Source: Oscillospiraceae bacterium (GTDB lineage: Bacteria > Bacillota > Clostridia > Oscillospirales > Acutalibacteraceae). From it: a DNA stretch of 64,000 nucleotides. Positions 610 to 63,043 of this stretch are shown here, piece after piece. Numbering within the stretch: position 1 is the first letter of the stretch; each line of letters opens with the position of its first letter. The stretch is taken from the NCBI GenBank assembly GCA_009784445.1, contig WRBQ01000004.1, positions 1 through 64,000 of the forward strand. Direction: 5' to 3'. Made by a program: the position numbers and the translations under genes. Below the pieces are notes generated by a model. The model saw only the letters and a list, made by a program, of their open reading frames with translations, searched no databases and had not been told where the DNA came from.

Positions 610-1869
610 ATGCAACAACCCCTCGCCGAACGCCTGCGCCCCCACAGCCTTGACGACATGGTCGGCCAGCCGCACCTGCTGGGCGAGGACCGTGCGTTGC
701 GTCGCATTGTGCAAAGCGGCACGCTGCCAAACCTGATATTCTATGGCCCAAGTGGAGTTGGCAAAACCACCTTTGCCAACATCATCGCCAAGCAAACTGA
801 TCGCACTTTGGTGCGCCTTAATGGAACGACAGCGGCGACTGCCGATATCAAAGCCGCAGTGGCGCAGACGAACACGCTCATGGCGCCAAACGGCGTGTTG
901 TTATATCTTGACGAAATTCAGTACTTCACCAAAAAGCAGCAGCAAAGCCTCCTCGAGTGCATTGAGTCCGGCGCGGTCACGCTCATCGCCAGCACCACCG
1001 AAAACCCATACTTTTACGTGTACGGTGCGATTTTGAGCCGCTCCACCGTGTTTGAGTTTAAGTCGCTGACGGCTGAACAAATTGTGCCTGCTATTACCCG
1101 CGCATTTGATTTTTTGCGCGCTGAGCAGGGCGAGGACTTCACCGTGGAGGATGGCGTGTACGAACACATTGCCCGCGCATGCGGCGGCGATGTGCGCAAA
1201 GCCATCAACGCGGCGGAGCTATGTTTTTTATCCCGTGATGCGGGCAAAATTACGCTTGAGCTGGCCAAAGAACTGGGGCAAAAATCCGCCATGCGCTATG
1301 ATCGCGAGGGCGATGAGCACTATGATATTCTGTCGGCGTATCAAAAGTCCATGCGCGGCGGTGACCCCGATGCTGCGCTGCATTACTTGGCAAGATTGCT
1401 TGAAGCTGGCGATCTGCCCTCGGCCATGCGCCGCTTGATGGTCACGGCCTGCGAAGACGTCGGCCTTGCCTGGCCGCAGATTATTCCCATTGTGAAGGCC
1501 GCCGTGGATGCCGCGCAGATGATCGGCCTGCCCGAGGCGATGATTCCTCTGGCGGATGCGGTGGTGCTAGTGGCCACTGCGCCGAAGTCAAACACGGCCT
1601 ATGTGGGCATTGGTGCTGCGCTGGCGGATATCCGCGCTGGCAACAGCGGGCCGATACCTCGCCAGCTGCAAAACAAGCATTTTGATGGCGTGGACAACGA
1701 CGACCCCGGCCAGCATTACAAGTATGCGCACGACTACGCGAATCGCTGGGTGGCGCAGCAATACTTGCCGGATGTACTCAAAGACCGCGTGTACTACACC
1801 TATGGCGACAACAAGCATGAGCAGGCCACTAAGGCTTATTGGGAGAGGATAAAGGGAGACAAGACATGA
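610..1869 (+). CDS. rarA: AAA ATPase, replication-associated recombination protein A (RarA/MgsA)
   Basis: PLAERLRPHSLDDMVGQPHLLG, Walker A GPSGVGKTT, Walker B LYLDEIQYF, C-terminal NKHFDG...YKYAHDYANRWVAQQYLPD. Confidence 0.95.
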   Translation: MQQPLAERLRPHSLDDMVGQPHLLGEDRALRRIVQSGTLPNLIFYGPSGVGKTTFANIIAKQTDRTLVRLNGTTAATADIKAAVAQTNTLMAPNGVLLYLDEIQYFTKKQQQSLLECIESGAVTLIASTTENPYFYVYGAILSRSTVFEFKSLTAEQIVPAITRAFDFLRAEQGEDFTVEDGVYEHIARACGGDVRKAINAAELCFLSRDAGKITLELAKELGQKSAMRYDREGDEHYDILSAYQKSMRGGDPDAALHYLARLLEAGDLPSAMRRLMVTACEDVGLAWPQIIPIVKAAVDAAQMIGLPEAMIPLADAVVLVATAPKSNTAYVGIGAALADIRAGNSGPIPRQLQNKHFDGVDNDDPGQHYKYAHDYANRWVAQQYLPDVLKDRVYYTYGDNKHEQATKAYWERIKGDKT

Positions 1870-2882: not shown

Positions 2883-4487
2883 ATGAAAGTTCTCAGGCGT
2901 TTTGGCGCATCATTTCACACACGAGTGGGTTCATTTGTCTTTTTTGCCTTGGCAGCCACGGCCTTTGCGTTGCTCAATAGCGCAACTTGGGCCTATGGCT
3001 GGATTGCGCAGTATTACCCGCTGGGCGAGGCCTTTGTGCCCACCATGCTGTGGGTAATGGCTGTGTGCACGGTGCTATTGCTGGTGTTTTTGCTGCTGCG
3101 TGAGCGCTTGGAAAATCGCAAGGCCGTGCGTGTGGTTCACACGGTGCTTTGTGTGCTGGCTGGTGCGTTGTTCGGCTATGCGTTCTTTTTGGCGTTTGGG
3201 CTTGACCACGGCGTTCGCTATCTCTCGCGCGGCTGGCAGCATTTGCAGCCCTACCTGTTCCATCTGGGCTTGCTCATCGGCATCCCCTTTGTGTTTTCGG
3301 TGCACCCCAAGCTCAAGCGAAAAGCGCAGGTCATCACGGCGGTGGTGCTCGCGGTGGCACTGGTGCTGACTGTCGCAGTGCCGCGCATCACACGCGCAGC
3401 CGACTCCTTCGACTTCAGCACAAACCCACTAGTGCTCGACATTGGCGATGAGTATTACAGCGTGGTGTTCGCTACCAATCGTCCTAGTGTGGGCTACTTG
3501 ATTATCGACGGCGAAATCACACCCAATGACCATGCCGGGCGCATGCACGTGGGGCGTGTGCATAACTTCCAAGTTCCGCGTGAGGCATTGGACGGCAATA
3601 GCTATCAGGTGCTTGCGCGTGAAGTGCCAGCGCTGCACAGCTCCTACACCAAGTTTGGTGCAACCATCGAAAGCCCCATGTTTGCTTTTAGAGGCGATGC
3701 CGGCGAAGAACTCAACATTGCTTTGGCTAGCGACTGGCACAACCAGCCCGAAAAGCTCGTGCAGGCCATGTCACATATGCCGCAGCCGGATTTGTTCATC
3801 ATGTTGGGCGATTTTTCCAGCGGCTATCATAGTGAAGATGATTTCATCTATAATATCATCTGGGCCGGTGCCGAGATCACGGGCAGCGAAGTACCCGCAA
3901 TTTTTGTGCGCGGCAACCACGAAATGAGCGGCGTATATGCGGCGCAAATTTTCCCGGGGCTGGGTCTACGTAGCTTCTATTATCAAGTGCAGATTGGCAG
4001 TTTCCTCTTTACGGTCATTGACTCGGCCTGTGACTGGCCAATTGATCGCACCAACACAACCGAGTTCGAGCGTGGCACCATCACCAGCACAAGCCCAAAA
4101 TATCTTGACCAGCAGCTAGCCTGGCTAGCGGACATGGAAGAGCCAGATGAAACTCTGCTACATTTTTCGCTGGTGCACATTCCCAACATTGACCAAGAAC
4201 GCGAGCAAACACGCGACGATTTCTTTGCGCAGCTAACTCGCTTGGGTGTTGACATGCAGTTTTCTGGCCACTGGCACGGCCTTGCCACAAGATTTTTCGA
4301 GCCTTATGAAGAACACGCACGCTTCACGTTGCCACTGCCCCTGTTTTTTGCTGGCGGCCCCACAGACGGCTACGGCGGTGACATCATGGCCTCCATGGCG
4401 CAAGTAAGTGCAGACGGCACCGTGCGCCTGCTGGGTTACGACAGCACAGGCCGGCAGCTGCAAGACAAACCCATCTCGTTACGCTAG
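2883..4487 (+). CDS. Membrane-anchored metallophosphoesterase
   Basis: N-terminal TM segments, then LASDWHNQPEK, GDFSSG, RGNHE, SGHWHG metallophosphatase motifs. Confidence 0.85.
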   Translation: MKVLRRFGASFHTRVGSFVFFALAATAFALLNSATWAYGWIAQYYPLGEAFVPTMLWVMAVCTVLLLVFLLLRERLENRKAVRVVHTVLCVLAGALFGYAFFLAFGLDHGVRYLSRGWQHLQPYLFHLGLLIGIPFVFSVHPKLKRKAQVITAVVLAVALVLTVAVPRITRAADSFDFSTNPLVLDIGDEYYSVVFATNRPSVGYLIIDGEITPNDHAGRMHVGRVHNFQVPREALDGNSYQVLAREVPALHSSYTKFGATIESPMFAFRGDAGEELNIALASDWHNQPEKLVQAMSHMPQPDLFIMLGDFSSGYHSEDDFIYNIIWAGAEITGSEVPAIFVRGNHEMSGVYAAQIFPGLGLRSFYYQVQIGSFLFTVIDSACDWPIDRTNTTEFERGTITSTSPKYLDQQLAWLADMEEPDETLLHFSLVHIPNIDQEREQTRDDFFAQLTRLGVDMQFSGHWHGLATRFFEPYEEHARFTLPLPLFFAGGPTDGYGGDIMASMAQVSADGTVRLLGYDSTGRQLQDKPISLR

Positions 4488-10476: not shown

Positions 10477-11910
<1,434 letters not shown>

Positions 11911-33361: not shown

Positions 33362-33390
33362 TTGACAAGCTTTTTTTTCTGTGCTAAAAT
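33362..33390 (+). promoter_or_regulatory. Promoter of putative type I toxin
   Basis: TTGACA, 17-nt spacer, TAAAAT. Confidence 0.7.
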
Positions 33391-33467
33391 ATACTTGGCG
33401 TTGTGCGCTGTGGTGTCGTTAGTTCTTCCGGAAGTTGGCTGATTTGCCAATGGAAGGAGGTGAGCGG

Positions 33468-33542
33468 ATGGAGTACTTAGTTATCATGGCAATCCTGTTG
33501 TTCTTGATAACCCGAGAAAACAAAAGCAATAAAAAAGACTAA
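33468..33542 (+). CDS. Putative type I toxin, 24-aa hydrophobic peptide MEYLVIMAILLFLITRENKSNKKD
   Basis: Strong SD AAGGAGGTG; hydrophobic core then charged tail; antisense promoter and terminator opposite. Confidence 0.65.
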   Translation: MEYLVIMAILLFLITRENKSNKKD

Positions 33543-33621
33543 CCGCCCCCCAGTCGCATGGTAGCGGTTAGTTCGTCTTTCCAGAGGAACTCTTGCGCGC
33601 CGCAGCGCCAAGCCCCTTGAC
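33530..33621 (-). ncRNA. Putative antisense RNA antitoxin (about 90 nt)
   Basis: Minus promoter TTGACA (33651-33656), 17 nt, TATAAT (33628-33633); minus terminator ACTAACCGC/GCGGTTAGT (33538-33572) then CTTTTTTATT. Confidence 0.6.
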
Positions 33622-33706
33622 ACTCTTATTATACCACATATAATGAGTGTTGTCAAGGGAGCTTTCCGATTTTTGCGCATGATTTTTATGAGAGGTATGC
33701 ATTTAA

Positions 33707-34879
33707 ATGAAACACATCATCATCCTATACGACGGCATGGCGGACGAGCCCCTGCCCGCCCTTGAAGGCAAAACACCCATGCAAGTTGCCCGCAAGCCGC
33801 TGTTCGACGCCATGGGACGCGACGGCGAGGTTGGTCTGGTGCACACCACACCGCCCGAACAATCTGCAGGCAGCGACAACACCAACCTCAATATCCTCGG
33901 CTACGACAGCACAAAATATTACACCGGCCGCAGCCCCATTGAGGCCGTGAGCATCGGTGTGCCCATGGCAGCCGACGACCTTGCCCTGCGCTGTAACCTA
34001 GTTACGCTCAGCGATGAAGATGATTACATCGCCAAAACCATGGTGGATTACGCCGGCAGCGAAATTTCCACGGAACAAGCGCATGAACTGATTGCCAAGC
34101 TGCAAGCTCAACTGGGCAGCGAGCAATTTGAATTCCACGCAGGTGTGCAATATCGCCATTGCTTATTATGGAAAGGCGGCAAAGCCAAGCTCGCCGGTAT
34201 GCACAACACTCCGCCGCACGACATCATCGGCCAGCCCATTGCTACGCACATGCCCAGTCATCCCGAGTTGCTAGACCTGATGCAGCGCAGCTGTGCCATT
34301 CTCAACGGCAACAAAGCCAACGCCATTTGGTTGTGGGGCGAGGGCACCTGCCCATTGCTACCCAGCTTTGAAGACATGCACGGCCTACACGGCAGCATTA
34401 TTTCCGCGGTGGATTTGCTCAAAGGCATTGGCATGCTTGCCGGCATGCGCACACCCAGCGTGCCCGGCGCCACCGACTGGATTGATACCAATTACAAAGG
34501 TGAAGCCAAAGCAGCGGTCGAGGAGTTCAAGGCCGGGCAAGACTTCGTTTTCCTGCACTTCGAAGCCACCGACGAAGCCGGGCACCGCGGCGATGTGCAA
34601 AGCAAAGTCCGCGGCATTGAGCTCATTGATGAAATTGTGCTGCCCATTGTGTTGGAATATCTGGAGCAACAAGACGATTACGCGCTGATGATTTTGCCTG
34701 ATCATCCCACGCCGCTTGCACGCAAAACCCACACCAGCGCCCCCGTGCCTTACATGATGTTCCGCAAGTCATGGCGCGGCAGCGGCAAGGGTGTGCACAG
34801 CGTAACCGAGCAAACCGCAGCCGCAACCAACAACGTGGTTGCACACGCGCCGGACTTAATCCGCAAATTCATCACATAG
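33707..34879 (+). CDS. apgM: 2,3-bisphosphoglycerate-independent phosphoglycerate mutase, archaeal type (ApgM)
   Basis: IILYDGMADEPLPALEGKTPMQVARKP, GSDNTNLNILGYD, HFEATDEAGHRGD, LPDHPTPLARKTHTSAPVPYMMF. Confidence 0.93.
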   Translation: MKHIIILYDGMADEPLPALEGKTPMQVARKPLFDAMGRDGEVGLVHTTPPEQSAGSDNTNLNILGYDSTKYYTGRSPIEAVSIGVPMAADDLALRCNLVTLSDEDDYIAKTMVDYAGSEISTEQAHELIAKLQAQLGSEQFEFHAGVQYRHCLLWKGGKAKLAGMHNTPPHDIIGQPIATHMPSHPELLDLMQRSCAILNGNKANAIWLWGEGTCPLLPSFEDMHGLHGSIISAVDLLKGIGMLAGMRTPSVPGATDWIDTNYKGEAKAAVEEFKAGQDFVFLHFEATDEAGHRGDVQSKVRGIELIDEIVLPIVLEYLEQQDDYALMILPDHPTPLARKTHTSAPVPYMMFRKSWRGSGKGVHSVTEQTAAATNNVVAHAPDLIRKFIT

Positions 34880-62966: not shown

Positions 62967-63043
62967 CATCTCCCCCTCTTCAAACTATAATAATCAACCG
63001 CTCACAGCTTGGCCGCTGGTGGGCGGTTGGTTACAACTTTAGC

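Follow-up and report, generated by a model that had tools for sequence, protein, structure and literature searches.

A putative type I toxin-antitoxin element repeated in an Oscillospiraceae genome and its relatives in Clostridia

The element and its copies

The window analyzed here is a stretch of 64,000 nucleotides (nt) from an Oscillospiraceae bacterium (positions 1 to 64,000 of contig WRBQ01000004.1), and all coordinates refer to it unless another contig is named. At 33362 to 33656 it holds a short element in which a plus-strand promoter (predicted start of the mRNA near 33397), a Shine-Dalgarno (SD) sequence and a short open reading frame (ORF) face a convergent minus-strand promoter and a terminator. 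A first-pass annotation had placed each of these parts, and all were found where it had put them when the sequence was reread (Table 1). It had also read the element as a type I toxin-antitoxin (TA) locus in which an antisense RNA converges on the gene and the leader sequesters the SD, an interpretation that conservation across Clostridia supports, and had remarked that the ORF track missed the gene; ORFs of ~20 to 27 codons were indeed overlooked at that stage. On its own, the window copy stands only modestly above chance and is not compelling, with four promoter matches versus 2.3 ± 1.6 in shuffled sequences. It is conservation that lifts it far above chance, namely, the eight copies of the same layout in the genome and the minus-strand promoter matches among 128 relatives.

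When a 316-bp stretch was searched against the window's own genome (G000, a gut Oscillospiraceae genome of ~2 Mb), nine matches were obtained, including a decayed remnant at C26:12233. Full copies number eight, the window copy and seven others, which lie at unrelated sites and have the same layout. The adjoining ORFs, identified by eye, are presumably dnaA, recG, gpmI, rny, pgi, and others. Peptides encoded by the full copies are of the type MEYLVIMAI(L/I)LFLI.. or MEYLVMLVL(I/V)LYM.., and a third type, MEYLVALIVILYLMDRYRSSTSKD, is also present, together with further distant copies. The sites are mostly common to this genome and a sister genome (G001), identified by its shared copies as the metagenome-assembled genome (MAG) Oscillospiraceae Emb289P1bin98, whose name and sister records suggest an origin in a termite gut. 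At seven loci both flanks match those of copies in the sister genome; thus, these loci are stable. At one orthologous locus (L002 in the window's genome, L021 in the sister genome) the two genomes differ in peptide type (A versus B), and a tandem B+A pair occurs at locus L027 of the sister genome, which together indicate exchange between paralogues. Tandem arrays with a period of ~330 bp and up to approximately six copies were seen at L042/L148, L111/L147, L115, and L027. In a copy of subtype C (L031, at G001:C23), an extra hairpin is inserted exactly between the anti-SD sequence CCTCC and the SD sequence GGAAGGAGG, with the translational lock retained.

Three features go beyond the first-pass annotation, namely, a plus promoter within the palindrome at the downstream end, the resemblance between the antisense and mRNA leaders, and the repetition of the element. 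A further one is a box in the 5' untranslated region (UTR) that is complementary to the stop-codon region in most members. The palindrome holding the minus promoter yields a perfect plus promoter (TTGACA-16-TATAAT, 33617 to 33644) in the window copy only. As this promoter is directly upstream of an ORF at 33707, which we take to be the phosphoglycerate mutase-like gene apgM, the window copy may also drive the neighboring gene.

Table 1. Features of the window copy
Feature	Position	Strand	Basis or remark
Putative toxin mRNA promoter, TTGACA-17-TAAAAT, extended -10	33362-33390	+	Sequence; aligned with promoters of other genus copies
mRNA 5' leader segment resembling antisense leader (GGCGTTGTGCGCTGTGG...AGTTCTTCCGGAA)	33396-33433	+	Leader comparison, family-wide test
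5' box GTCGTTAGTT	33415-33424	+	Complementary to stop-codon/terminator arm ACTAACCGC; imperfect in window copy
Anti-SD segment UUCUUCC	33423-33429	+	Sequence, RNAalifold pairs, cognate pairing (z of 6.7)
Apical hairpin TTGGC-TGATTT-GCCAA	33435-33450	+	Between anti-SD and SD; sequence, fold
SD sequence GGAAGGAGGTGA	33452-33463	+	Sequence; almost invariant among copies
Putative toxin ORF, 24 aa, MEYLVIMAILLFLITRENKSNKKD (24 codons plus stop)	33468-33542	+	Sequence; pN/pS
U-run of predicted antisense terminator	33531-33536	-	From A-run 33536-33531, encoded by C-terminal lysine codons of the toxin
Bidirectional terminator hairpin	33538-33572	both	Stop codon TAA inside 5' arm; arms 33538-33546/33564-33572 (ACTAACCGC/GCGGTTAGT) perfectly complementary; family-wide conservation
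Predicted antisense (antitoxin) RNA, ~92 nt	33530-33621	-	Inferred from promoter and terminator
Antisense RNA 5' leader, including AGTTCCTCTGGAA (33591-33579)	33574-33621	-	Resembles mRNA leader
Putative antisense promoter, TTGACA-17-TATAAT, extended -10	33628-33656	-	Sequence; conserved in family
Inverted repeat CCCTTGACA...TGTCAAGGG around antisense promoter	33614-33659	both	Long hairpin in plus-strand RNA

Conservation across relatives

A covariance model (R1) was built from 19 copies of the genus. At E ≤ 0.01, 61 of the 200 genomes searched from the bacterial family contained relatives, and at E ≤ 0.001, 44 of the 291 from the class did, roughly 15 to 30% of those sampled; many were often present per genome, also in tandem at ~330 bp. 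A scan of the phylum gave matches in 11 of 300 genomes, mostly to the hairpin only. Among the named matches, most of them MAGs, are records of Christensenella, Ruminococcus, Eubacterium, and Peptococcaceae; the cultured Christensenella sp. Marseille-P2438 carries a relative at locus L086. Two elements were found in a tailed-phage contig from IMG/VR (L140, at 3107 to 3246 and 10847 to 11019), one among tail genes and the other upstream of a predicted lysin-like ORF; a DNA search of annotated phages and plasmids gave no match. Elsewhere in the window, positions 62993 to 63032 (minus strand) weakly match the hairpin end of R1 (9.5 bits, E of 0.31), probably by chance.

The antisense promoter lies outside R1 and therefore provides an independent test, for which 128 distinct relatives were available. 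The best downstream promoter on the minus strand matched the consensus at 12 of 12 positions in 85 relatives and at 11 or more in 113 (mean, 11.4), compared with means of 8.4 in shuffled sequence and 9.0 on the plus strand of the same stretch, where only six reached 12 of 12. Among the strong cases, with two exceptions, promoter and hairpin were 47 to 68 nt apart. From the promoter scores and this near-fixed distance, a convergent RNA of ~85 to 110 nt appears to be a conserved part of the element; the RNA overlapping the toxin mRNA is itself predicted, with its promoter and terminator strongly conserved. The upstream promoter scored 10.2 over the family versus 8.3 in shuffled sequence. The predicted overlap of the two RNAs is ~43 nt if the mRNA ends at the first hairpin and 92 nt if it is read to a second, the long hairpin formed by the inverted repeat across the antisense promoter. 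In 16 genus copies this long hairpin has a minimum free energy of -28.0 versus -14.5 when shuffled, and it is possibly a second toxin-mRNA terminator in genus copies only; the T-run following it is poor in the window copy. As a general feature this second terminator was rejected, given that the hairpin is absent in relatives outside the genus. The mRNA may thus end at either the first hairpin or, in the genus, the long one.

The ORF is under purifying selection: pN/pS was 0.36 (subgroup A), 0.22, and 0.17 within groups and 0.31 over 210 broad pairs. The coding sequences are 90 to 93% identical, compared with 60 to 82% for the 5' UTR and 50 to 72% for the hairpin loop, so that the ORF is better conserved than these neighboring parts. 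Peptides range from 19 to 34 amino acids (aa), mostly 20 to 27; most start with MEY and most end with KK or KKD, and further examples are MEYLVMLVLILYMLTELKRTDKEN and MEYLAVIAVILIVATGYIMSIKK. All 111 peptides examined have a hydrophobic core, with a 15-residue Kyte-Doolittle maximum of at least 1.91. The terminal lysine codons and the stop codon double as the terminator of the antisense RNA. At least two lysines occur within the last four codons in 97 of the 111 relatives and a 7/8 A-run in 81; no claim is made for a preference for AAA over AAG at these lysines (P = 0.064). The window peptide matched nothing in Pfam or NCBIfam. Among 61 family representatives, none reached the Pfam cutoff, no credible NCBIfam or PHROG match was obtained, and none matched the Fst or Ldr models at E values up to 1. 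The family peptide profile had no match in the PDB, and none of 4,227 Rfam models matched the element or its relatives. PF16935 (Hol_Tox) matched neither the window peptide nor anything in its genome, and two distant relatives matched it below the cutoff.

With both leaders set side by side, the antisense leader is in most members a sense copy of the mRNA leader; at L040, for example, the antisense leader reads GTGACACTACCGCTCAGGC-GTTAGCGTCCCC and the mRNA leader GTGGCACTACCGTTTTGGCAGGCAGTTAGCGTCCCC. The window copy shows a shorter match (AGTTCCTCTGGAA/AGTTCTTCCGGAA, preceded by GGCGCTGCGGCGC/GGCGTTGTGCGCTG). The similarity score of cognate leaders was 23.1 over 100 elements, versus 14.0 ± 0.33 for permuted partners (27 standard deviations), 12.3 for shuffled leaders, and 12.7 for reverse complements. 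Many antisense leaders contain an ACCG...CGGT hairpin. RNAalifold returned no consensus pair over all antisense leaders; a model of them (R2) was therefore sequence only and was replaced by tests with split-half hidden Markov models. Models made from the antisense leaders of one half of the elements recognized, with scores of at least 5 bits, 6 to 13 of the 50 mRNA leaders in the remaining half and no shuffled or reverse-complemented leaders.

As the hairpin sequence is present in both RNAs, the two are partly complementary there. Pairing of the antisense leader with the mRNA leader was specific to cognate partners (z of 6.2, or 4.2 without the genus), compared with a z of 0.2 for a control pairing of the antisense leader with the 5' arm of the mRNA stop-codon/terminator hairpin. 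Raw duplex energies (cognate, -28.6; permuted, -27.0 ± 0.37) are only supporting, because G+C content confounds them. The lock between leader and SD, proposed in the first-pass annotation as UUCUUCC pairing with GGAAGGA (33452 to 33458), is supported: the segments are complementary in the window copy, RNAalifold gives consensus pairs, and cognate pairing over the family has a z of 6.7. The 5'-UTR box is GGCGGTTA in most relatives and pairs with TAACCGCC at the stop codon. This pairing had a P value below 0.05 in 77 of the 111 relatives (family z of 4.3), and matched variants of box and stop region occur (AGACGGCT/AGCCGTCT and GGCAGTTAG/CTAGCTGCC). In relatives whose two terminator arms are not alike, the box agrees with the 5' arm in 56 cases versus 12 (P = 6e-9), which favors a contact in cis over pairing of the box with the antisense RNA.

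Proposed mechanism and alternative explanations

We consider it highly likely that the element is a chromosomal type I TA module. A short mRNA from the plus promoter would encode a membrane peptide of 24 residues with a single span. The 5' leader of this mRNA would hide the SD, and in most relatives pairing of the 5' box with the stop-codon/terminator arm would add to this, leaving fresh mRNA untranslated. The convergent promoter would give an antisense RNA of ~92 nt ending at the same hairpin. First contact would be made over the terminator, where the RNAs are fully complementary. In most members the 5' ends could pair as well, because the hairpin-forming leader of the mRNA recurs, in sense orientation, as the antisense leader. 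Once formed, the duplex would prevent translation and leave the mRNA open to RNase III, as in txpA/RatA and bsrG/SR4 (PMC6562991). If the antisense RNA were lost, synthesis of the peptide would follow, with harm to the membrane. The promoters, hairpins, purifying selection, leader copying, and cognate-specific complementarity are read from sequence and its conservation; we infer transcription, the order of pairing, the part of RNase III, toxicity, and the biological role.

Several points weigh against this interpretation. The promoters are consensus matches, and the transcripts, the toxicity, and its neutralization are predictions only. In the window copy, folding is modest (z of -1.9 for the mRNA and -2.3 for the antisense RNA), and the 5' box is weak (P = 0.42). 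Within the genus there is little covariation in the SD hairpin (covariation term, -0.1), the comparisons of cognate with permuted partners do not fully remove relatedness among elements, and the genome assembly is a draft in 61 contigs. Complementarity between the antisense leader and the SD is also weak, with a z of only 2 to 3, and such pairing was rejected as the main contact in trans.

The ORF might instead encode a small regulatory membrane protein that is not a toxin and is tuned by the cis-antisense RNA. Toxicity is only predicted for the peptide, single-span microproteins can serve other roles, and the same chromosomal sites are kept in the sister genome, as for useful genes. Set against this, several observations fit type I toxins: the sequence drifts extremely while the hydrophobic core and the charged tail stay constant; there are many copies per genome, tandem arrays, and two copies in a tailed-phage contig; a translation-locking leader is present; and a Hol_Tox peptide is encoded within this RNA layout elsewhere. 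On balance this explanation is unlikely. Still less probable is a mobile repeat resembling a miniature inverted-repeat transposable element, in which promoters and leaders would fall within terminal inverted repeats by chance and the ORF and antisense RNA would be by-products. Dispersed copies, inverted-repeat ends, similar sequence at both ends, and tandem arrays would be expected of such a repeat, but the ORF is the best conserved part and under purifying selection, both promoters are conserved as promoters, and the seven loci with both flanks shared indicate that the element is stationary; no precise empty site was seen in a search at apgM, where genome G003 is rearranged. A role of the antisense RNA chiefly in regulating other genes in trans, the short ORF being of secondary importance, can practically be dismissed, for while the antisense leader is as well defined as that of the mRNA and many copies could form a network, it tracks its own mRNA leader rather than a constant target, and the ORF is under selection.

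As a type I TA module, the window copy very probably belongs to a widespread, apparently undescribed variant with a copied-leader design. Validated type I TA systems in Clostridia were limited to Clostridioides difficile as of a 2019 review (PMC6563280). No family library searched covers the ORFs of this family, which R1 and the alignments make easy to annotate. The copied leader suggests a simple way in which a convergent antisense RNA could gain a second contact with its target, and toxin swaps on one RNA chassis bear on the diversification of type I toxins.

Comparison with known systems

A literature search of open-access papers found no description of this clostridial element family, and no description of a copied 5' leader was found for txpA/RatA, bsrG/SR4, or par/Fst. 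The Ibs/Sib loci of Escherichia coli likewise combine a very short hydrophobic toxin (18 to 19 aa) with repression by a cis-encoded antisense RNA and repetition in the chromosome; unlike here, the antisense RNA spans the whole ORF, and there is no shared terminator or copied leader. The type I modules of C. difficile, such as CD0956.2/RCd10, are similar in their convergent genes, hydrophobic peptides with a lysine-rich tail, many copies, and links to prophages (PMC6563280). They differ in toxins of 34 to 59 aa and SigB promoters, and their toxins were reported to lack homology to other type I toxins (PMC6563280).

The par/Fst system (RNA I and RNA II of pAD1; Fst/Ldr) shares convergent promoters, a bidirectional terminator common to both RNAs, an SD-sequestering 5' stem-loop, a small hydrophobic peptide with a charged tail, and a second contact at the mRNA 5' end (PMC7472228). 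In par/Fst this second contact lies at the DRa/DRb repeats (PMC7472228), whereas here it would be the copied hairpin leader, with weak SD complementarity; the predicted antisense RNA is ~92 nt, compared with ~40 nt. The window peptide (24 aa; family mostly 20 to 27) is without proline or a PXXXG motif and has no Pfam Fst/Ldr match.

The first-pass annotation had likened the locus to txpA/RatA and bsrG/SR4. This stands as to the antisense RNA, here predicted, that converges on the 3' end of the toxin gene and as to sequestration of the ribosome-binding site, which are also found in these Hol_Tox (PF16935) systems (PMC6562991); it does not stand as to the shared bidirectional terminator, which is nearer to par/Fst, or the peptide, which matches no family model. 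The Hol_Tox model has matches in Bacillus subtilis and not in the window's genome. Complementarity is also shorter here, ~43 nt, or 92 nt with an mRNA extending to the second hairpin, versus 100 to 140 bp in B. subtilis. Outside the class, locus L158 (near 1501 to 1660, minus strand) encodes a Hol_Tox peptide (37.1 bits) within the same RNA layout, with a stop-codon hairpin of the same kind, TAGACCGCC, and GGGCGGTCGGC in both leaders, which suggests that the copied-leader design may extend to Hol_Tox loci. Some conserved bsrG/SR4 loci encode BsrH/E instead (PMC6562991), so that the exchange of toxins within a single RNA frame has a precedent. We put at about even the chances that these elements make up a large and so far undescribed class of clostridial type I TA systems that rely on one RNA chassis, in which both RNAs carry the same hairpin leader and would meet at both ends and the toxin is exchangeable, as among MEYL-type micropeptides, Hol_Tox-like peptides, and the A/B swaps at one orthologous locus.
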